A DNA stretch of 31,855 nt from a virus: positions 1 through 31,855 of the IMG/VR virus record IMGVR_UViG_3300009068_000112, one strand, 5' to 3'. Positions 13,188 through 24,571 of the stretch are shown one piece after another. The translations under genes were made by a program, and so were the position numbers. Every line of letters begins with the position of its first letter. Positions within the stretch are counted from its first letter, which is position 1. The notes beneath the pieces are model-generated. The model saw only the letters and a program-made list of their open reading frames with translations, was not told the DNA's origin and searched no databases.

Positions 13188-13240
13188 TGTACTTGAGGAA
13201 ACAAGCCCTTTAATCTAATAAGAAAAAAGAGGTGAAATAT

Positions 13241-13855
13241 ATGGCATATACACGTGGTAGTTCAAACGATATTATCGTTGGAGCAGCAGCACTCTTCACA
13301 TACGAAGATGGCGCACTTGCAGACGCAGACATGCCAGCATACGTAGCAGGCGACTCATACAAGGATACCCTTGCAGATGACGCAGACTTCCGTAATGTTG
13401 GATACACAATGAATGGTTTGGAAATTCAATTCCAGCCAGATTTCGGTGAAGTAGCAGTAGACCAGGTACTTGACGTTGCTAAGTTATTTAAGCAAGGCAT
13501 GCAGGTAAACCTAAATACTACATTCGCAGAATCAACACTAGAGAATCTCCTGTTTTCATTAGCAGGAAAGAATGAGGATCTAGCAACAGTTTCATCAAAC
13601 CCAACCCTTAGACTTTCAGCAGGCGACATCGGAGATGTCCCAGTTGAGCGTGGTTTAATTGCAGTTGGTCCAGGAACTGGAAACGCCGCACTAAACGTAG
13701 AGCGTGTTTACGTTGCATACCGTGCACTTTCAATTGAAAATGTTACAGTAGCAGCAAAGAGAGACGAAGCGACAATGTTCGAAGTATCATTCCGTCTTCT
13801 TCCAAATGATAATGCATCATACGGTAAGATCGTAGATCGTACTGTTAGCGCATAA
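13241..13855 (+). CDS. Major tail tube protein
   Basis: 204 residues. It polymerises into the tail tube through which DNA passes. Start chosen at ATG 13241 because AAGAGGTGA lies five bases upstream; a GTG at 13232 in frame overlaps that site and is not used. Pattern: RGSSNDIIVGAAALFTYEDG (~5-24), the strand pair GYTMNGLEIQFQPDFGEVAVDQVLDVAKLFKQGMQVNLNTTFAE (~54-97), and the C-terminal AYRALSIENVTVAAKRDEATMFEVSFRLLPN (~160-191), typical of tube-fold proteins. Codon use resembles the capsid gene (CGT, GGT, AAC enriched), which fits high expression. Followed by a terminator and then the chaperone genes and tape measure, the canonical siphovirus order. Confidence 0.88.
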   Translation: MAYTRGSSNDIIVGAAALFTYEDGALADADMPAYVAGDSYKDTLADDADFRNVGYTMNGLEIQFQPDFGEVAVDQVLDVAKLFKQGMQVNLNTTFAESTLENLLFSLAGKNEDLATVSSNPTLRLSAGDIGDVPVERGLIAVGPGTGNAALNVERVYVAYRALSIENVTVAAKRDEATMFEVSFRLLPNDNASYGKIVDRTVSA

Positions 13856-13887
13856 TAATCATTAAATAAAAACTTAATAATACAGGG

Positions 13888-13928
13888 TTGCCCTTGCTCA
13901 TTAACTTGAGCGGGGCAATTTTGTTTTT
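13888..13928 (+). terminator. Intrinsic terminator after tail tube gene
   Basis: Stem TTGCCC-TT-GCTCA (13888-13900) against TGAGC-G-GGGCAA (13907-13918) with a six-base loop and one small internal mismatch, followed by TTTTGTTTTT. The next -10 box begins almost immediately after the T-run. Confidence 0.88.
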
Positions 13929-13936
13929 GGTATACT
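13928..13936 (+). promoter_or_regulatory. Extended -10 box TGGTATACT, leaderless start for chaperone
   Basis: The same nine bases as at 5331. The hexamer ends six bases before the ATG at 13943, the normal distance to a transcription start, and no Shine-Dalgarno sequence is present. A leaderless mRNA beginning at the A of the start codon is the simplest reading. Confidence 0.6.
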
Positions 13937-13942
13937 ATATGA

Positions 13943-14626
13943 ATGGCTACAGAAGTATATGAAAGCGACTACCTAACTCTTATAGATGGCACAGAGTTGT
14001 TTATTACACCATTAAAAATAAAATATCTAAGACAGTTTATGGTTGCTTTTGAGTATGTCAAATCAGCAAAAGATGATGATGGTGCAATCGATGCTTTAGT
14101 TGAGTGTGCTCGAATATGTATGAAACAGTATTACCCAAAAATTTCGTTATCAAAAGAACTAGTCGAGGATAGTTTTACATTAAAAGACATCTATCATCTT
14201 TTAGATATTGCAGCGGGAATTAAAGTAAATGAAAAATCCGAAGAGCCAGTAAAAAAACAAGCAACAGATAGTGGATCAACTTGGGAAACACTAGACTTGG
14301 CAAAACTTGAAGCAGAGGCGTTTCTGCTTGGCATTTGGAAAGACTACGAAGAACTTGAATGCTCTATGTCTATGCCAGAAATAATGTCAACTCTTTCAAT
14401 CAAAAGAGAATTAGACTATGCAGAAAAAAAATTCCTTGCAGCAATGCAGGGTGTTGACCTAGACAAACAGTCTGGGAAAAAAAATGAATGGGAAGAACTA
14501 AAGGCTAGAGTTTATAGCAATGGGGAAGCAAGAAACTCAAGTGATATTTTGGCACTGCAAGGAGTCAATGCACAAAAGGCTGGATTTGGAATTGGAATGG
14601 GCCTAACTTACGAAAAAATTGACTAA
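13943..14626 (+). CDS. Tail assembly chaperone, long (pre-fused G-T-like) form
   Basis: 227 residues in two domains within one uninterrupted frame. Residues ~9-93 are the chaperone N-domain (LTLIDGTELFITPLKI, MKQYYPKISLSKELVED, IYHLLDIAAG). Residues ~118-227 are the T-like part (LDLAKLEAEAFLLGIWKDYEELECSMSMPEIMSTL, RELDYAEKKFLAAMQGVDLD, DILALQGVNAQKAGFGIGMGL). In most siphoviruses the two parts are joined only by a programmed ribosomal frameshift; here they are already fused. The N-domain is clearly paralogous to the whole downstream gene. These chaperones bind the tape measure and recruit tube subunits. A poly-A heptamer at the domain junction (14251-14257) could still give a short product. 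The start is SD-less behind TGGTATACT, suggesting modest expression compared with the downstream gene. Confidence 0.82.
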   Translation: MATEVYESDYLTLIDGTELFITPLKIKYLRQFMVAFEYVKSAKDDDGAIDALVECARICMKQYYPKISLSKELVEDSFTLKDIYHLLDIAAGIKVNEKSEEPVKKQATDSGSTWETLDLAKLEAEAFLLGIWKDYEELECSMSMPEIMSTLSIKRELDYAEKKFLAAMQGVDLDKQSGKKNEWEELKARVYSNGEARNSSDILALQGVNAQKAGFGIGMGLTYEKID

Positions 14627-14642
14627 TTCATAGGCTTGTCTA

Positions 14643-14651
14643 TGATATAAT
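14643..14651 (+). promoter_or_regulatory. Extended -10 box TGATATAAT before second chaperone gene
   Basis: TGA plus perfect TATAAT, 24 bases before the ATG at 14676, in a 49-base gap. An overlapping alternative is TTGACT (14619-14624), 16 bases, TATGAT (14641-14646). Either would give the short chaperone its own transcript; AGGAGG at 14666-14671 serves translation. Confidence 0.55.
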
Positions 14652-14675
14652 TAACTAACTAACACAGGAGGAATA

Positions 14676-14999
14676 ATGGCTGAAAAAGCAAATAGCAAAA
14701 CAGTTACACTGATAGATGGCACAACACTAAATGTTCGACCACTAAAAATTTCACTACTACGTCCGTTTGTAAAAAGATTTGGGGATCTAGCACTTGTTGC
14801 AGATGACAATGATAAATCTATGGACGTTCTACTTGATTGCGTCTTAATTGCAATGAAGCAGTATAAACCAGAACTTTCAGAAAGCAAAGAAGCACTAGAG
14901 GATCTTTTGGATCTTCCAACAGTCTACGAAATCATCGAGGCTGCATCAGGAAGCGATTCTGCTACAAGTAACAACTTGATGGCATCAATCAGCAAGTAA
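14676..14999 (+). CDS. Tail assembly chaperone, short (G-like) paralogue
   Basis: 107 residues, equivalent to the N-domain of the gene at 13943 and nothing more. Shared blocks include TLIDGT near residue 11, PLKI near 23, MKQY near 55 and SKE followed by ED near 66. By hand about 37 of 84 aligned residues are identical, with one gap. It has its own -10-like box and a strong AGGAGG site, so it is probably made in excess over the long form, as the short chaperone is in lambda. It lies directly upstream of the tape measure. No frameshift-prone extension is seen: the region after its stop has no T-like domain. An origin by duplication of the N-domain is inferred. Confidence 0.82.
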   Translation: MAEKANSKTVTLIDGTTLNVRPLKISLLRPFVKRFGDLALVADDNDKSMDVLLDCVLIAMKQYKPELSESKEALEDLLDLPTVYEIIEAASGSDSATSNNLMASISK

Positions 15000-15022: not shown

Positions 15023-18000
15023 TTGTCAGACGTAAATGCTAATATAGGCATAAATTTTAATACGGCTGACGCCTTAGCACAACTTAGAACTTTACAGTCT
15101 GGACTAAGTAGGTTTCATCAAAGCCTTGCAGAAGGAAACCTTGCTGCCTCTAATGCACAAAAGGGATTAAATGCACAACTAATTCAGTCAATTAATGCGA
15201 CTGGAAAATTTTCTGCATCTCAGGTAAAAGTAGCAACTAGTACACAAGCCTTCACAACAGCACTTGAAAAAAATCAGTTAAGCCTTGGTCAGTATTTTAG
15301 ATACACGGCTGCTGCTGCAACTGCAAACACAAAGACTCTTACGAGTATGTTTGCACAGGAAAGAGAAATACTTAATCGTGCACGTAGAGATAGAGTAAAG
15401 GCTTTACAGTCTCAATACATTCAATTGCAAAAAGCCAACGGTGGCTTTGTAGATGCAATAAAAATAATGCCAAAATCTTTAACTATGGCAAATGGACAAT
15501 TTACTGAACTCGGAACAAGGATTCAATATGCTGCACAAAGACAGCAATTCTTAAATCAATTACTAAGGCAAGGATCAACACAACTTCTAAACTTTGGTAA
15601 GAATACTCAATGGGCTGGTCGTCAGTTGATGGTTGGACTTACTATTCCACTTGGAATGCTTGGTTCATATGCTGCACGGGCATTTAAAGAGATGGAAGCA
15701 GCAACCGTAAAGTTCAAACGTGTATATGGAGATGCTTTTACTGATAGTAGAACAACAGACATCGCAGTTGAAAATATTAAACGAATTGGTATGGAATATA
15801 CCAAGTTTGGTATTGCTGTCAAAGATACAATGGATATGGCAGCAACCGCTGCAGCAGCAGGTTTTTCAGGCACAGCATTAGATGCACAGGTAAAACAAGC
15901 CAACAAACTTGCAGTCCTTGGTCAAGTTGAACAGCAGCAAGCGCTTGAAACAACTATATCTTTACAAAATGCTTTTGGAATTTCTTCAGAAGACCTTGCA
16001 AAGAAAATTGATTTCCTTAACGCAGTTGAAAACCAAACAGTCCTTTCTATTGAAGATTTAACAATTGCAATTCCTAAAGCAGCACCAGTTGTAAAGCAAC
16101 TTGGTGGAAATGTAGAAGACCTAGCCTTTTTCATGACTGCAATGAAAGAAGGTGGAATTAATGCATCAGAAGGTGCAAATGCTCTAAAGTCTGGTCTTGC
16201 TTCTATGATTAACCCAACAAAGAAAACTTCAGAGATGCTTGCTGAAATGGGAATTAATATCAAGGGTGTTGTTGAAGCAAATAAAGGGGATCTAAAGGGC
16301 ACTGTTGTTGGATTTGCAAGAGCACTGGATGAGTTAGATCCACTAAACCGTGCAAGAGCAATTGAGCAATTATTTGGTAAGTTTCAGTTTTCAAGAATAT
16401 CAACATTATTTCAAAACGTAGTAAAAGAAGGAAGCCAAGCCTCAAGAGCACTGCAACTATCGGGTGCTTCACTTGAAGAGTTAGCAATTATCTCTGAGCG
16501 AGAAATGGGCAAGATTGAAGATGCCGTTGGAGTTAAGTTTCAAGCAGCAGTAGAACAATTCAAGCAAACTATTATGCCAATAGGAAAACAATTTCTAGAA
16601 GCATTAACACCAGTTGTTAAGTTTATTGGTAAACTGTTTGAAAAGTTTAATGATCTATCTGATGGAACTAAAAAGTTTGTAACAATACTTACAGCAGTGG
16701 TTGCTGGAATTGGTCCAATATTTTTAATGACATTTGGTTTGCTTGCTAATGGTCTTGCAAACCTAATTAAATTGTTTGCAACCATCAGAGGTGGAATTGC
16801 AAAACTTAATGGACAAAATAAAATGCTTGGTGGCGGATTTGACTATCTAACACAGCAAGAAATTGAGAATGTTGCATCATCAAATGCTCTACACGGATCT
16901 CATGAAAGACTTATTCAAGTATTTAATGTTGAAAATGTTGCACTTCAAAAATTAGCAAACTCATATGCAAATGCAGCCTCACAAGCCAGAGCCCTTGCAA
17001 CATCTTCCCCTGGACTATTTGCATCACCAGGTGCTGGTGCAGCAGTTGCAAAATTACCTGGCGGACAAGGTAGACCAGTTAGACGATATGCAGAAGGAGT
17101 TTTGCAAGTACCTGGTCCAAAAGGTGCAGGGGATATACAGCCAGCATTCCTTGCTCCAGGAGAAGCAGTTATACCAGCAGATGTAACTGCAAAAAATATT
17201 GGATTCCTACATGCAATGATGGAAGGGAAAACTCCTGGATATATGGCAGGAAAGATACCAGCAAGACCATCATTTCATGCAAAGCCTGATGAATTACAAT
17301 CAGGAGCAAAGTTTGTCGGAATGCCAAAATCTATTGGCCAAGTAACACAGTCAAGACAAATAGCAGACCGCATTGCAGAATCAGTTACAAAGAGCCAATT
17401 TGGAAAAGTTCCCCCAACAGATTTTGGAACACTGCTTCAAGGAACCTCTGGAAGAAGTTTTCCTATTCCAAACGTTGGTGGAATTTATAGAAAACCAAAT
17501 GGAGAAGTAGTATTTGTTAAGCCTGCAGTAGATGCAACCTCAGCATTAGCAGAGCAACGTGCAACAATAATTGCAAGAGATGTACACGGATTAAAAGCAC
17601 CAAATCAAACAATCAAGACAATGTTAGACCCAACAGATGCAACTGGTAAGAGAAAGTTAATTGTACTTGAATCACCATACGATCCTAAGTTAGCAGAAGC
17701 AAGTGGTAAGTTTACAAAGAAGCAGATGGTTACTCAACTTGTTGCATCTCTTCTTCGTGGAGATAAAGATTTGTCTAAGTCTAATGTTTTTGGAAATACG
17801 TTAGCAGACGTTGGCCCAGCAGGAGTATTTAGTAGAGCATCTGGATTTAGAGATATTCAATCCGCAATGCCTTCAATGAAAGATCAGGCAATGATTAATC
17901 TTCTTGGAGTTAAGGGTGGAGCAAGAAAAGATTTTGCTTTATCTACTGCAGACATAGCAAAAAAGATGACACCACAAGAGTACAACTCTGCAATTAGCGC

Positions 18001-21000
18001 AGAGATTGCAAAGGTGCTACCAAAACTTAAAAAAACTGTTGCTGGAATGAACCTATCTCCTGCAGATGCTGCTCCTTACAGTGCAATGATTGCACGACTA
18101 GAGGCTGGTCAAAAAACAGATTGGTCTTCATTCCAAAAAATACATGCTGCTGCTGGCTCACCAGTTAAAAAATTAATGGCAGGATTTATTCCAGAACTTT
18201 CAGTATCACAAAGATCACAGTCACAAGTTGAAATGCAAAAGTTTTTTGATTGGGCAGATAAGCAAGTAGAGTCTTCAAACCTAGATGGAACATTTAAAGA
18301 TAGATGGAAGAAGTCTACTGGTCCAGCGTTTAGACAAAGCCTAATGGAAAAAATGATTTATGATCCAAACAGTAAAACATTTTGGACAAACATGGGTGGA
18401 ACAAATGGAGTTAATCTTGAAAGAATGCAAGAAAGATTTAACTACAGATTCGGTATTGCACCTGATGCACAAACTGGAAAGTATGTAAAATCAAACCTAT
18501 TTAATATTAGTAAGTTTTTAAGTAATGTAACCTCTGGTGGACAGTCAAAGCGTGGTGGAGATATTGGAGCAAATAATCCAAAAGCAAAAAAAGTTTGGGA
18601 TGAAATAAAAGTAGCAGCAGCAAATCCAGGCGGAGTTAAGTCAGATAAAACAATTAGAAAGTATACAGACTTCCTTGCTAATATGAAAGACGGAGCAGGA
18701 AATGAAACGCAATTAGCAAAAGACCTAAAGTCTAACTCTCCATTAGTAAGAAAATCTGCAATGGAATCAGTTGATAAAATGTTTAGACTTGATGCTTCAC
18801 ACGCTCAAGCAGTAAGAGTGTATGATAGTTTAGAGGATGCACAAGCAGGAAAGTCTAGACCAGCATCAAAATCAGAAAAATATTCTCTTGGTCAAATGGG
18901 TCCAGACTATAGAGTTATAAATGAATTTGTTAAAACAAACGACCCAGGAAATAAATCTAGATTTGAAAAAATATTAGAGTGGAATAATAAAAATGGAAAC
19001 CCTCTTGCAATTGATGGCACACAAAACAGAAATCTTCAGTCTGCAATTCAGTCAATTATTAGAGAAGAAAACCATCCGTTTGATCCACAAAATCAAAAAC
19101 ATGTAAAGGCTCTTGCAGAACTTGAAATAAAAGCAAGAGATTTAATGACAGTTGATCCATCTAAAGCAAAAGGCTTATCGTTTTTAAGTAAATCTTCTAG
19201 TGCATACATAAATGCAAGACTTACAGACAACATTATGTCTGATAGAATTTCAGACTCTAATTGGTTTAAGAGAATGAATGAAAATAAGATGTTTATGAAT
19301 ACATCTGTTCTTGATGATAAAGGTAGACCAGTACGAGGCGCACTAGAAACAGTTAGAAAGTCTGAGTATTACTTTGATTCAAAGACTGGTAGATTTATAC
19401 CTTACACAGGACAAAACACTTCTGCTGTTGCAACTGGCAGAGTGACTGGAAAAGGAACAGAAACAAGAACTCCAAACGCTAGTAAAACTGGTGGGCAGCC
19501 AACTGCAACAAGATCTCAGGCAAGAGCATTTGCTGTAAGACGTGACGCAGGTGACCCAAGATTCAAAGGACTTGGAACAGATTCTCCATTAAGCAAGAAC
19601 GCACAAGGAAGAATTACAAATGCTATGCAAGAGCAGGCACGTTTGTTAAAGTTAAGAAATAACTTGTCAGCAAAAGAAATAGATCAAGCACTATCTCAAT
19701 ATAGAAGAAGGCTTATACTTGCAGAAAGAGAAAAGGCACATGCTAATGCACAAGCGCTACGAATGCGTGAGCAGTCAAAGATTGATTCTGAAAGAGTTGT
19801 AAATTCTAAGGCTCTAGCAAAGCAAGAGCGAGCACAAAGGCAAATGGCTCGTCAAGAAAAGGTAGGAAGATACTCTGGAGGAACATCTGCAGCCCTAGGC
19901 GGAGTTGCAATGGGTGCAATGATGATGGGGGCCGACGCTAAGGTCACTGGAGGCCTATTTGGGGCCTCTGCACTGGCTGGTATGGCTCCAATGCTAACTA
20001 ACCCATATGTTGCTGCTGGAACGGCTGTACTGGCTCTTGCTGGGTCTGTATTGCTTGCAGAAAAGGCCAATAGATCAGCAGCAGAAAAAATATCAAGATT
20101 TACAGATGCAACATCTGCAACAACTGAAAAAATGAAGTCTATTGGAGAACTTACTGGAAAAGTCGGTGCTTCAGAACTATATGCACGAAAGAGATCTACA
20201 TCGGTATCTGATAGATATACAACTGGATTTGAAAGAGGAAAGCAACAGTTTGGTGCAACCTTTGTAGAGTCAGAAACTGGTAAATCAATTGTAGAGTCAT
20301 TTACAAAAGACATGGTGACTGGTGGAAATAATGCTGTTAAGAAAATATCTTTGCAACTTGCTGCTTATGTTTCAGATGGAATAATGAGTGCAGAACAAGC
20401 CCATTCAGTTGCAAGCCAAATTGGAATTAATTTAAACAATCAAACTGTAACCTCTCAGATAAGTGGTGAGATTATTTCACTTATTGGTCCAAGTGGTGTA
20501 GATCTACTTAAAGATCCACTAACTGTAAGAATGAATTTAGTGCAAGAACAAATTTCTAACACATCAATGAGCACAGAAGATTATGCCTCTGCTGGAGTTC
20601 CAATATTTGATGTAGGGTCTCAGGATGATATTCAAGAGGCTATATCTAATTATTTTGATGACTACATTGCTCTGTTTACAGAAACTGGACCAGAAAAAAT
20701 TGGAGCAGCATTAGGTTCATCGTTTGCTCAATCTTTTGAGTTTAATCAATCTCAGGCAGATTCATTTGCTAAGTACTATGATGATCAGATAGCAATATTA
20801 CAAAAACAAAAGTTACAAACATCTGAACTTTCAAAGCAAGAGGTTATAACAGGTAAAATTCGTAAATTAGAAGAAAAAAGAGATGCTGGTTTACAAGATT
20901 TTAAGAAAAACAATCAAACAATATTAGATAACGCAGGTAAGGCTGTTGGTGCACTACAAAATAGCACACCAGGACTAAGCGCACTTAAAACAGCATCACG

Positions 21001-24000
21001 AACACAATTATTAGACAAGTACAAGGGTGGGCCAGAAGAGTTGGCATCGGTTGTTCTTGCAGAAAAAACCAAAAAGTTAAACACAGATCTAGAGATAAAG
21101 ATTAATGCTGTAGCAGGAAGTGGAATTGTCGGTCCAGACGCATTAAGTCAAATGGTTGATATGTTTGGAACAGATGCAAAGGGACAAGCAGCAATCCAAA
21201 GAAACCTAGATTTGGCAATCACAAAGCAGGACCCAGGAAAAGTTCAACAATTACTTCTACAACTTGGAACATTTAAAAGTCCAAAAACAAGTAGAAAAAT
21301 TTTTGTTGCATTAATGAAAAAGGATCCAGCACAGTTTGACAAACTTGCATCAACAATTGCACTTATGCAAAAGATGGATACTAAGGAAATTAACCTAGAG
21401 GCATTTTTTGAATCGGAAGACGCTGAAACAAAACTAATAGACCTTCAGGAAAAACTTGAAAAAATTGAAAAAATGCCAACCCCAATTACTAAAGAGGCAA
21501 TTGCTCTTGTTAATACTGATGGAAATTCAAAAACTAAAGATATGACCGCCCTGCTTGCTATCTGGGATCAATGGGGTAACTTGCCAGACGAAACAAAGAA
21601 GACTGTAATTCAAGAATACGTTGCAATATATTCAACGATTGATGATCAGGCAGCAATTACAAGTATAAAAACCAAAAATCCAAGAGCAAGAAGAATTACA
21701 AAAGCACAGATTGATGCTGAAAAAGGAAGAATGGCAGCAGAAAGAACAATGCAGGTTGTTAAACAAGATATTGCGTCTAAGGCTGCTAGTAATCTTGAAC
21801 AGGAACAAAAAAATGGTTCAAAGAAGGCTGACCCAATAAATGATATTCTTGCAAGACTTAAGCAGGTAAGGCTTGCATCTTTAGATGCCACAAAGGGGAT
21901 TGCAGAATTATTTAAAGCAGTTGGAGACGGTAAAAAGGTAAAGGGTGTAATTGGTGATGTATTTAATGGCATGCAGCAACAACTTCTTAAGAAGGGTTCA
22001 AACCAACAGTTTATTGATTTCCTAACTTCTATGATTGGTGATCCTGCAGAATTAGCCAAGTATATGAGGACTGCTACAAAGGCAACTAGCGGTCCAAATA
22101 AGGGCAAGGTGGTTGATCCATTTAATCCTAAAAATGTTCTTAAGGGTAGTAAGGTTGGGGATGTTGTTTTATCTGAATCAGGCAAGGCAGCCCAAGCAGG
22201 AATAACTAAAGCCGTAGGCGGTGACTATAATTTAGCACAACTTAAATCAATAACAAATGATAAAGACCGTGCTAAGGTTATGGAAAGAATTGCAACTCTT
22301 GCAAAAACAAACAACAAGTTTGTTATTGATAACCACACACTTCAGAATATTCTTAATGATGAATACTATGTAACCGAACTTGCTGCAGGCAGAATTACCG
22401 ATGCTGAATTTGAAACAAACACTCTCCTTGCAAAACAAGCAGAACTTAGAGAAAGAATTAATGGTATTGTCTCAGAAGGGTTGTCTGCAAAACAAGAATT
22501 GGCAGATAAGGGCAGAGTTGGAGAACTTCTTAAGTTTATGACGGAGACAACAGATCTTCCTAAGTTATCTTCTGGTGCTTTGCTTGATATGATTAAAGAT
22601 CCAAATCAATTATCTGCTGCAATCGCTGCCATGGATATGTATAAGAGTGGAATTGAAAAGGTACCTGCAAGTTTGCAGAATGTTGTAGATGGACTTAATA
22701 ATGTTCAAAAGAATGCAAAGATTCAAGGATATATAAATTTTGCATCTCAAACAGTCCCAGAAAAAATTTCTCAAGGTGCTGCTGCAGCACAGAATGTTCT
22801 TAGTGTTAAAGCAAGACTAAGAGAAAAAATGAATATTTCTGAATTAAGAAAATATGGCACAAAAGCAAATCCTAATATGGGAGAAAATGCATATCAGGCT
22901 GCTGTAAAAGCAACAGGTGGCACAGCAATAACTGGTGGCGGAAAGAGTTTAAGTCAAATTCAAGTTGCTCGTCAAGGCCTTGGATCCCAAATGAACCTAG
23001 TTCAAGCAAGAGCAAATCAAATACAAAAAGACATTTCTGCAAAAGAAGATGAATTGAACAAGGCAATTGAAGATAAGAATAAATATTATAATAAATTAAT
23101 TGATACCGAAAAGGATTCTATTGAAGCAAATGAATCAAAACTTAAAAAAGAGTTTACAGATTTAATTGATAAAAAACAAACAGAATCAAACAAGTTAAGC
23201 AATGATCTTGCTATAATCAATCATCAAGAAGAAGAAATAAACAAAGTCTATGATGAAAGAATTAAGGCTTTAAATGAGACCCAGCAAATAAATCAAAGAC
23301 TTATTGCTCAACAACAAACACAGTTGGGTCTTGCAGATGCTCTTACACAGGGAGATATTTCAGCAGCAGCAAAGGCTGCTCAAGAAATGCGATCACAAAA
23401 TGCTGCAGCATATGCAGAAGACACTACAAATGCTTTAACACAGGCAAGAGATAATCAGATAAAGGGTCTTAAGGGTTCAGAGTCAGGAATGACTAAGGAT
23501 CAAATTGCTGAAAGACAATATAAAATATCCCAAGAAATTTATAAGATTGAAACAGACCCTAAGAGACTTGAACTTGTTAAAGCAATTGAGACATCACAAG
23601 AAAAAATTACGCAGTATGAAAAAGATAGATCAACTGCAATTGATGCAATAAATCTTAAGTATGAAAAAGAACTTGCAGATCTTAATACAGCACTAACATC
23701 GCAAACAAGTATTTTAGATAAATTAGAAAAAGAAGATGCAGAACTTGCTTCCCAAGAAGCAGAATTACTTCTTATTCTTGATAGTCTAACAAGTATGGAT
23801 GATCTTGCTGGTAAAACACTACAAGATTTTGAAGATATGGTTCTTAAGGCAGAAGCAATGGCTACTGCACTAGAAGAAGATATCGTTAAAGCAATGATGG
23901 CAATCGAGGAAGACTCTGCAAGTGCTTCTGGTTCTTGGACAAATATTGTAGATAAAATTAATGCCCTTCCCGATTCGATTACTATTAAAAGCATTATTGA

Positions 24001-24571
24001 TGAAGTGAGAAACATAACCGAAAATATTACAAGATATATAACAACTATTACAACTGGTGGTGGCTCAAGTTCAAGTTCATCAAGTAGTTCAAGTAGTTCA
24101 AAGGTTGGTCAAGGTAAAGATGACGGAAACGGATCTTCTCTTGGTTTTTATAATTCTTTAGGCTCAGATGGAGAAAAGGGAAGTACTGCAGCAGAAAACG
24201 CAGCAGCAGATGCACAAGCCAAAGCAGATGCAGCCTCAGCAAGACTAAATAATTGGTTTTGGGAAAGAGACTCTTCTGGTGGATTAATTAAGCCAAGACG
24301 ATTTGCTATAGGTGGACCAGTAATAGGTACAGACATTATTCCAGCAATGCTTACTCCAGGAGAATTTGTAATGAGTAAATATGCTGTAGATACACACGGC
24401 ATTGATAAAATGAAGGCTATTAATTCTGGATCAGATGCATCTTCTTCAGTGTATAATTATGAGTTAACAGTTAATGTTAGATCAGATGCAAGTCCAAGCG
24501 ATATTGCAAATACAGTAATGACTAAGATTAAGCAGGTTGATTCTATGAGGATAAGAGGTAATAAACTATAA
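15023..24571 (+). CDS. Tail tape measure protein (TP901-type core), very large
   Basis: 3182 residues; sets tail length and enters the host envelope at infection. Starts at TTG. Domain map: ~1-215 helical N-terminus; ~218-500 TP901 core (AFKEMEAATVKFKRVYGDAF, then GFSGTALDAQVKQANKLAVLG, then NVEDLAFFMTAMKEGGINASEGANALKSGLAS); ~552-590 hydrophobic segment (VTILTAVVAGIGPIFLM); ~686-716 RRYAEG...FLAPGEAVIP; ~810-1010 a globular kinase-like block; ~1010-1600 helical, basic; ~1618-1680 Gly/Ala-rich hydrophobic stretch; ~2655-2780 and ~2850-2925 coiled coils; 3015-3026 a run of 12 Ser; 3092-3118 RRFAIGG...MLTPGEFVMS. The second PGE motif is the usual tape-measure C-terminal signature; the first sits 2400 residues earlier. 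At about 0.15 nm per residue the helical length would approach 480 nm, an upper bound because inserted globular domains add nothing. The stop overlaps the next start (TAATG). Confidence 0.93.
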   Translation: MSDVNANIGINFNTADALAQLRTLQSGLSRFHQSLAEGNLAASNAQKGLNAQLIQSINATGKFSASQVKVATSTQAFTTALEKNQLSLGQYFRYTAAAATANTKTLTSMFAQEREILNRARRDRVKALQSQYIQLQKANGGFVDAIKIMPKSLTMANGQFTELGTRIQYAAQRQQFLNQLLRQGSTQLLNFGKNTQWAGRQLMVGLTIPLGMLGSYAARAFKEMEAATVKFKRVYGDAFTDSRTTDIAVENIKRIGMEYTKFGIAVKDTMDMAATAAAAGFSGTALDAQVKQANKLAVLGQVEQQQALETTISLQNAFGISSEDLAKKIDFLNAVENQTVLSIEDLTIAIPKAAPVVKQLGGNVEDLAFFMTAMKEGGINASEGANALKSGLASMINPTKKTSEMLAEMGINIKGVVEANKGDLKGTVVGFARALDELDPLNRARAIEQLFGKFQFSRISTLFQNVVKEGSQASRALQLSGASLEELAIISEREMGKIEDAVGVKFQAAVEQFKQTIMPIGKQFLEALTPVVKFIGKLFEKFNDLSDGTKKFVTILTAVVAGIGPIFLMTFGLLANGLANLIKLFATIRGGIAKLNGQNKMLGGGFDYLTQQEIENVASSNALHGSHERLIQVFNVENVALQKLANSYANAASQARALATSSPGLFASPGAGAAVAKLPGGQGRPVRRYAEGVLQVPGPKGAGDIQPAFLAPGEAVIPADVTAKNIGFLHAMMEGKTPGYMAGKIPARPSFHAKPDELQSGAKFVGMPKSIGQVTQSRQIADRIAESVTKSQFGKVPPTDFGTLLQGTSGRSFPIPNVGGIYRKPNGEVVFVKPAVDATSALAEQRATIIARDVHGLKAPNQTIKTMLDPTDATGKRKLIVLESPYDPKLAEASGKFTKKQMVTQLVASLLRGDKDLSKSNVFGNTLADVGPAGVFSRASGFRDIQSAMPSMKDQAMINLLGVKGGARKDFALSTADIAKKMTPQEYNSAISAEIAKVLPKLKKTVAGMNLSPADAAPYSAMIARLEAGQKTDWSSFQKIHAAAGSPVKKLMAGFIPELSVSQRSQSQVEMQKFFDWADKQVESSNLDGTFKDRWKKSTGPAFRQSLMEKMIYDPNSKTFWTNMGGTNGVNLERMQERFNYRFGIAPDAQTGKYVKSNLFNISKFLSNVTSGGQSKRGGDIGANNPKAKKVWDEIKVAAANPGGVKSDKTIRKYTDFLANMKDGAGNETQLAKDLKSNSPLVRKSAMESVDKMFRLDASHAQAVRVYDSLEDAQAGKSRPASKSEKYSLGQMGPDYRVINEFVKTNDPGNKSRFEKILEWNNKNGNPLAIDGTQNRNLQSAIQSIIREENHPFDPQNQKHVKALAELEIKARDLMTVDPSKAKGLSFLSKSSSAYINARLTDNIMSDRISDSNWFKRMNENKMFMNTSVLDDKGRPVRGALETVRKSEYYFDSKTGRFIPYTGQNTSAVATGRVTGKGTETRTPNASKTGGQPTATRSQARAFAVRRDAGDPRFKGLGTDSPLSKNAQGRITNAMQEQARLLKLRNNLSAKEIDQALSQYRRRLILAEREKAHANAQALRMREQSKIDSERVVNSKALAKQERAQRQMARQEKVGRYSGGTSAALGGVAMGAMMMGADAKVTGGLFGASALAGMAPMLTNPYVAAGTAVLALAGSVLLAEKANRSAAEKISRFTDATSATTEKMKSIGELTGKVGASELYARKRSTSVSDRYTTGFERGKQQFGATFVESETGKSIVESFTKDMVTGGNNAVKKISLQLAAYVSDGIMSAEQAHSVASQIGINLNNQTVTSQISGEIISLIGPSGVDLLKDPLTVRMNLVQEQISNTSMSTEDYASAGVPIFDVGSQDDIQEAISNYFDDYIALFTETGPEKIGAALGSSFAQSFEFNQSQADSFAKYYDDQIAILQKQKLQTSELSKQEVITGKIRKLEEKRDAGLQDFKKNNQTILDNAGKAVGALQNSTPGLSALKTASRTQLLDKYKGGPEELASVVLAEKTKKLNTDLEIKINAVAGSGIVGPDALSQMVDMFGTDAKGQAAIQRNLDLAITKQDPGKVQQLLLQLGTFKSPKTSRKIFVALMKKDPAQFDKLASTIALMQKMDTKEINLEAFFESEDAETKLIDLQEKLEKIEKMPTPITKEAIALVNTDGNSKTKDMTALLAIWDQWGNLPDETKKTVIQEYVAIYSTIDDQAAITSIKTKNPRARRITKAQIDAEKGRMAAERTMQVVKQDIASKAASNLEQEQKNGSKKADPINDILARLKQVRLASLDATKGIAELFKAVGDGKKVKGVIGDVFNGMQQQLLKKGSNQQFIDFLTSMIGDPAELAKYMRTATKATSGPNKGKVVDPFNPKNVLKGSKVGDVVLSESGKAAQAGITKAVGGDYNLAQLKSITNDKDRAKVMERIATLAKTNNKFVIDNHTLQNILNDEYYVTELAAGRITDAEFETNTLLAKQAELRERINGIVSEGLSAKQELADKGRVGELLKFMTETTDLPKLSSGALLDMIKDPNQLSAAIAAMDMYKSGIEKVPASLQNVVDGLNNVQKNAKIQGYINFASQTVPEKISQGAAAAQNVLSVKARLREKMNISELRKYGTKANPNMGENAYQAAVKATGGTAITGGGKSLSQIQVARQGLGSQMNLVQARANQIQKDISAKEDELNKAIEDKNKYYNKLIDTEKDSIEANESKLKKEFTDLIDKKQTESNKLSNDLAIINHQEEEINKVYDERIKALNETQQINQRLIAQQQTQLGLADALTQGDISAAAKAAQEMRSQNAAAYAEDTTNALTQARDNQIKGLKGSESGMTKDQIAERQYKISQEIYKIETDPKRLELVKAIETSQEKITQYEKDRSTAIDAINLKYEKELADLNTALTSQTSILDKLEKEDAELASQEAELLLILDSLTSMDDLAGKTLQDFEDMVLKAEAMATALEEDIVKAMMAIEEDSASASGSWTNIVDKINALPDSITIKSIIDEVRNITENITRYITTITTGGGSSSSSSSSSSSSKVGQGKDDGNGSSLGFYNSLGSDGEKGSTAAENAAADAQAKADAASARLNNWFWERDSSGGLIKPRRFAIGGPVIGTDIIPAMLTPGEFVMSKYAVDTHGIDKMKAINSGSDASSSVYNYELTVNVRSDASPSDIANTVMTKIKQVDSMRIRGNKL
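24065..24100 (+). repeat. AGT/TCA serine-codon low-complexity repeat in tape measure
   Basis: Twelve consecutive serine codons, only TCA and AGT, forming an imperfect TCAAGT repeat that encodes a flexible linker at residues 3015-3026. Preceded by three Gly codons. Prone to length change by replication slippage. Confidence 0.8.

Follow-up and report, generated by a model that had tools for sequence, protein, structure and literature searches.

The locus considered here raises the question of how a long-tailed phage could supply a short and a long tail assembly chaperone from two separate genes, and what has become of the frameshift by which such a pair is usually made. In most long-tailed phages, both tail chaperones are produced from one gene by a ribosomal slip; few features of such phages are as widely conserved as this G/GT frameshift, and tail assembly is held to depend critically on the proportion of its two products. 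Xu, Hendrix and Duda are said to have described, in 2004, tail assembly chaperones of the gpG/gpGT type with a programmed -1 frameshift. In lambda, whose type of gpG/gpGT expression by programmed -1 frameshifting has been reviewed, many gpG associate with the tape measure protein for each gpGT (approximately 30:1), and recruitment of the tail tube protein falls to the T domain (PMC5009743). A preliminary description of the present locus had proposed that a duplication has replaced the frameshift and that the ratio of the two forms is set by expression.

We analysed the loci from the DNA of the virus record IMGVR_UViG_3300009068_000112, the whole 31,855 bases of which are referred to as the window. 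Both open reading frames were confirmed where they had been described, i.e. at 13943-14626 (227 amino acids) and 14676-14999 (107 amino acids), and are referred to as GT and G2. The features of the locus are as follows.

13232-13855, plus strand: major tail protein gene, with an Ig domain; upstream neighbour, with a probable ATG start at 13241.
13882-13928, plus strand: intrinsic terminator that separates GT from the major tail protein gene; its stem core (13892-13915) is followed by a T-run.
13931-13936, plus strand: extended -10 box TGG-TATACT, 6 nt 5' of the GT ATG; the transcript is predicted to be leaderless.
13943-14626, plus strand: GT, the long tail assembly chaperone, 227 amino acids, with the N-domain and the T-domain in one frame; assigned from homology, domain profiles, Foldseek and dN/dS.
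13943-14233, plus strand: G-like N-domain of GT (residues 1-97), a paralogue of G2 in a clade of its own (96/78); phrog_10504, E 4e-17.
14219-14281, plus strand: fused linker GIKVNEKSEEPVKKQATDSGS, sitting where the frameshift relatives slip, as placed by alignment with the Moab frameshift product GGIKLNDPN/SSSGGSGSTWE.
14251-14257, plus strand: A_AAA_AAA run in slippery phase at codon 103, from which a -1 slip meets a stop four codons on; judged to be a chance run.
14282-14623, plus strand: T-like C-domain of GT; phrog_10474, E 3e-13, and tblastn matches to T of 127 Streptomyces and three Rhodococcus phages.
14646-14651, plus strand: extended -10 box TGA-TATAAT, 24 nt 5' of the G2 start codon.
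14666-14671, plus strand: Shine-Dalgarno (SD) sequence AGGAGG of G2, conserved among the representatives.
14676-14999, plus strand: G2, the short chaperone, 107 amino acids, a paralogue of the GT N-domain; assigned from homology, its clade and a dN/dS of 0.09.
15023-24571, plus strand: tape measure protein gene, 3182 amino acids; downstream neighbour, matching PF10145 (E 1.7e-28) and phrog_10030, tape measure (E 4e-72).

The upstream neighbour matches the profiles phrog_2175 (E 3e-32) and phrog_885, major tail protein (E 0.008), and shares 74% DNA identity over 118 bp with the major tail protein of Streptomyces phage Moab. The N-half of GT matches phrog_10504 and its C-half phrog_10474, in agreement with the original claim that one frame of 227 residues holds both a G-like and a T-like domain. 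G2 matches phrog_10504 only, without phrog_10474, and therefore repeats the first domain alone; as had been supposed from a hand count of 37 identities in 84 residues, it is a copy of that domain, with 39 of 90 residues identical to GT by BLASTP (43%, E 4e-22). The kinship of the two N-domains was also to be judged by structure prediction, and AlphaFold models from the proteins' own alignments gave them near-identical predicted secondary structure, with the same order of elements (two strands, and helices ending at 40, 63, 77 and 91). The mean pLDDT was approximately 76 in both models, near 90 in the GT N-domain, and the last 50 residues of GT were poorly predicted. In a Foldseek search of BFVD, the GT model matched GT of phage N15 (E 2e-3, prob 0.98) and several annotated tail assembly chaperones; the Foldseek search of solved structures gave no match for the models.

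Searches against tail chaperone families had been suggested as a further check: PHROG profiles of tail assembly chaperones were matched weakly by the G2 relatives, tblastn recovered annotated chaperones, namely those of Stanwilliamsviridae and of three Rhodococcus phages, and the Pfam search of the chaperone proteins matched no relevant family. The pair has the composition of the G/GT type, i.e. a short N-domain protein and a long protein of N- and C-domains with a common N-domain; the pair is related to known chaperones and flanked by the genes of the major tail and tape measure proteins. The gene order major tail protein, GT, G2, tape measure matches the position of the annotated chaperones in Streptomyces phages. 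Gene position and homology together make the chaperone assignment strong, and a chaperone role is the predicted biochemical function of GT and G2 in this phage. Median dN/dS values of 0.07 for GT and 0.09 for G2 indicate that both genes encode constrained proteins under purifying selection.

A survey of related phages, which had been suggested as a check, revealed that the two-gene arrangement recurs. Each search gave the best 80 of about 500-600 matching loci, and rare exceptions could thus be missed. All of the first 80 IMG/VR relatives (the best 80 of approximately 500-600) carry a fused GT, with G2 present unless the contig ends. Among the matches listed, 265 loci, which overlap between searches and include at least 159 distinct GT/G2 DNA pairs, fall by domain layout into 235 with GT and G, 25 of the frameshift type without G2, four with GT alone and one odd locus, L156. 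The last has a seeming frame break within GT at the contig edge (positions 1-257), probably a sequencing or assembly error. The four loci with GT alone each stop at a contig end, and apart from such truncations no fused GT without G2 was found among the matches listed. Scans of viral contigs and genomes for intermediates, i.e. a fused GT without G2 or a frameshift type with G2, likewise gave only contig-end truncations among the matches listed. WhiB genes are present on 13 of 15 relative contigs, which is consistent with actinobacterial hosts. The GT/G2 viruses constitute a large, previously undescribed aquatic group whose hosts are probably actinobacteria. For the Nanopelagicales, other phages have been obtained as isolates (PMC10202952); these are not known to carry the GT/G2 locus.

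A single G gene with T in the -1 frame was found in Streptomyces phages of the Stanwilliamsviridae, in two Rhodococcus phages and in an aquatic sister group. The Stanwilliamsviridae (Moab, TunaTartare, MulchMansion) were compared at two loci, those of the tail chaperones and of the major tail protein; the window has minimal DNA similarity to named phages. These phages resemble the GT/G2 viruses in their homologous G and T domains and in gene order, with 35-39% identity over GT in tblastn. They differ in having one G gene without a second copy, and a T that lies in the -1 frame and, in the Streptomyces phages, overlaps the end of G, with CCCAAAT at the opening of the T frame in the five Loccivirinae sampled. 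The predicted Loccivirinae frameshift product aligns with GT of the window across the junction, and a joined CDS is annotated in TunaTartare, Patelgo, NiceHouse and Francesca. In Boydwoodruffvirinae (junctions of L164, L165, L166 and L170), the same -1 overlap carries CCCGGAA in place of a canonical X XXY YYZ heptamer, an atypical slip signal. The aquatic frameshift group was found by a search with L264 (CAINGU010000031.1), a relative in a cyanobacterial MAG bin, and L264 and L266-L345 together represent a second lineage of aquatic phages, one whose chaperone locus is of the frameshift type; the bin labelled as a cyanobacterium holds one member of it, possibly a phage contig that was binned there. 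Among the matches listed, all 44 distinct loci, one of them of the Rhodococcus type and the others from the aquatic group, have T in the -1 frame, with CCCAAAC/T as the heptamer in 43 of the 44 and GGGAAAA in one, and a second copy of G was found at none of these 44.

The direction of the change is given by trees. The T domain is single-copy and its tree therefore follows the locus. When rooted on the Rhodococcus phages, this tree presents the frameshift types as a grade; the fused type is monophyletic (100/97) and groups as sister with two loci of the aquatic frameshift type (95/89). The fused type is thus nested within the frameshift types, which indicates that the frameshift was the ancestral state, lost a single time. 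In the G-domain tree, the N-domains of GT form one clade (96/78, and 97/80 in a second tree) and G2 another (100/98 in both), which points to one duplication before the radiation of the group. The G-domain tree, built from 100 columns and with long branches, conflicts with the T-domain tree in that the aquatic frameshift group does not join the GT N-domains and G2, possibly as a result of long branches after the duplication. The rooted T-domain tree, the -1 relatives without a second G and the constant presence of G2 with the fused type among the matches listed together uphold the proposal that a duplication replaced the frameshift.

The signals in front of the two genes differ and are conserved. 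The -10 box of GT, TATACT at 13931-13936, lies close to the start without an SD sequence, and a TANNNT box occurs 5-9 nt 5' of the start in 55 of 56 representatives (mean 10.3 and maximum 18 in shuffles), with no SD motif in any of the 56. An intrinsic terminator is located upstream in all 56 (mean -20.4 kcal/mol), with the -10 box almost directly after it; the fold reaches -25.3 kcal/mol in L001, whose upstream sequence is identical to that of the window. G2 has TATAAT or TATACT 14-30 nt upstream in 52 of 56 representatives, mostly at 24-28 nt (shuffle mean 1.95, maximum 8), a strong SD (AGGAGG or a near match) in 49, and an SD core of at least 4 nt in all 56. The reported leaderless-type start of GT behind its own -10 box and the reported box and AGGAGG site of G2 are therefore patterns kept across the group. 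A generic promoter scan of the single window gave nothing above chance, and the evidence for the promoters is consequently their conservation across relatives. In L046 (4691-5477), GT and G2 are separated by an inserted open reading frame of approximately 220 amino acids that looks like a SAM-dependent methyltransferase (ELGCGSGNDTLFLS...); G2 retains its own -10 box and SD there, which suggests that GT and G2 are separate expression units. In the aquatic frameshift types, G has an SD in 23 of 23 loci and a -10 box at 22-30 nt, and none is leaderless; a -10 box was also seen in the Stanwilliamsviridae upstream regions sampled. As the aquatic frameshift-type G shares the layout of G2, it is the short form that appears to retain the ancestral signals, the leaderless start being a gain of the long form. 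Other gene starts in the window, at 1594, 5341 and 7397, also have a -10-like box 1-9 nt upstream and no evident SD, and leaderless expression may therefore be general in this phage and not specific to GT. In Mycobacterium tuberculosis, leaderless mRNAs with TANNNT -10 boxes are well documented, and the median abundance of the proteins made from them is below that of SD-gene products, a difference that may arise in translation or in transcription (PMC3898074). By its start signals GT would likewise be translated from a leaderless mRNA; that such expression is weak is our assumption.

It is conceivable that G2 has diverged to another role, e.g. chaperoning the tape measure protein exclusively or regulating GT, so that GT by itself covers the tasks of both G and GT. 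The stem branch of G2 in the G-domain tree is long (0.85), and its function is predicted from sequence in every phage. Nevertheless, G2 keeps the length of the G domain and the conserved motifs LIDGT, PLKI and LR.F, adjoins the tape measure gene, has the promoter and SD layout of the frameshift-type G, and is never lost with a fused GT among the matches listed. Its C-terminal tail also resembles that of the frameshift-type G, with a mean score of 6.8 that only 0.1% of common-position permutations equal; since the GT linker also scores in the same comparison (5.3; 1.4%), inheritance of this tail from the ancestral G is suggestive and only supportive. Taking these points together, we regard another role for G2 as unlikely.

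We consider it less probable still, and rather remote, that GT continues to yield a short form by slippage at the A_AAA_AAA run, with G2 as an accessory copy. In dnaX, a short form arises in this way by -1 slippage at A_AAA_AAA; the run in GT is in slippery phase, and its product of approximately 107 residues would be near the size of G2. However, G and T share one frame of 227 codons in the fused GT, and heptamers in phase within codons 95-112 occur in six of 56 representatives, the number expected from synonymous shuffling (5.97 +/- 1.85). Close relatives, L009 (82% identical) among them, lack such a heptamer, and the ancestral CCCAAAC/T is missing from the linker position in all 159 pairs listed. 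With heptamers at chance level and the ancestral one gone, the run is best read as a chance occurrence in the Lys-rich linker of an A-rich gene, and a retained frameshift in GT was rejected. G2 as a -1 continuation was also rejected, the -1 frame after codon 95 being open for a median of only seven codons. An artefact of assembly, strain mixing or annotation, as might be suspected for the fused GT or the additional G2 from fused-type members being metagenome contigs throughout and from the broken frame of L156, is in practice refuted by independent contigs: at least 159 distinct pairs have the same arrangement across many independent IMG/VR metagenomes, with median dN/dS below 0.1.

We therefore favour, as very likely, replacement of an ancestral programmed -1 frameshift by gene duplication in a long-tailed phage, probably one that infects actinobacteria, at its locus for the tail assembly chaperones. 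We propose that one copy of the ancestral G/T gene became fixed in a single frame and gives only the long chaperone GT, and that a second copy kept the G domain alone and gives the short chaperone G2. As in lambda, numerous G2 molecules would cover the tape measure protein, with a few GT bringing in the major tail protein. The terminator would isolate the locus from the transcript of the major tail protein gene, GT would be made from its own weak leaderless transcript, and G2 from the second promoter with its strong SD. There is no strong terminator between GT and G2; GT transcripts should thus also run into G2, and this read-through would add to G2. The scheme predicts an excess of G2 over GT, and from the signals in the DNA we infer that the GT:G2 ratio is set by expression, as first suggested. 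A fuller account, which we put forward tentatively and hold at a little under an even chance, is that the frameshift was replaced once by duplication and fusion, that control of the ratio moved to a leaderless long-form and an SD-bearing short-form mRNA and became responsive to the translation state of the host, and that the design then spread through a widely found aquatic clade.

As in lambda-type phages, a short N-only and a long N- and C-domain chaperone have their genes flanked by those of the major tail and tape measure proteins, and the GT model resembles GT of N15; in contrast, the long form here is one open frame, the short form is a separate gene and the frameshift site has been lost. 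For T4, Vladimirov, Gautam and Davidson reportedly proposed in 2022 that the short and long chaperones are separate genes. The T4 proteins gp26 and gp51 (L265, 5803-7229) are weak paralogues, with 20% identity over 161 amino acids in a single comparison (E 2e-6), and their genes are adjacent, divergent and near the tape measure gene 29; this pair, a two-gene solution like GT/G2, is a candidate for the one meant in that proposal. T4 has a different tail type, and its pair was compared here only with itself; the present case differs in that a tree gives the change a direction and a conserved pair of leaderless and SD signals accompanies it. The locus had been called a clean alternative solution to the stoichiometry problem; this needs qualifying, given the reported proposal for T4 and its weakly paralogous gp26 and gp51. 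In Microbacterium Cluster EA phages, the passage that treats the chaperones gives two separately expressed ORFs and no evident frameshift, as in GT/G2; they are two ORFs and not a fused long gene with a duplicated short one, and homology between them goes unmentioned in that passage (PMC7302621). No description of a fused GT with a duplicated G2 was found in the open-access literature searched. What appears to be new, judged from sequence comparison, is a two-gene system polarised on a tree, kept in a large uncultured clade and marked by a conserved leaderless/SD pair, the two-gene principle itself having reportedly been proposed for T4.

For annotation, the locus carries the warning that a short gene of the G2 type would be called hypothetical and that looking for a slippery site would be unsuccessful. 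With sister lineages that have and lack the frameshift, and a direction of change from the rooted tree, the question of why the frameshift is usually kept becomes testable, as do those of what ratio is really needed and whether promoter and translation-initiation signals can replace recoding.
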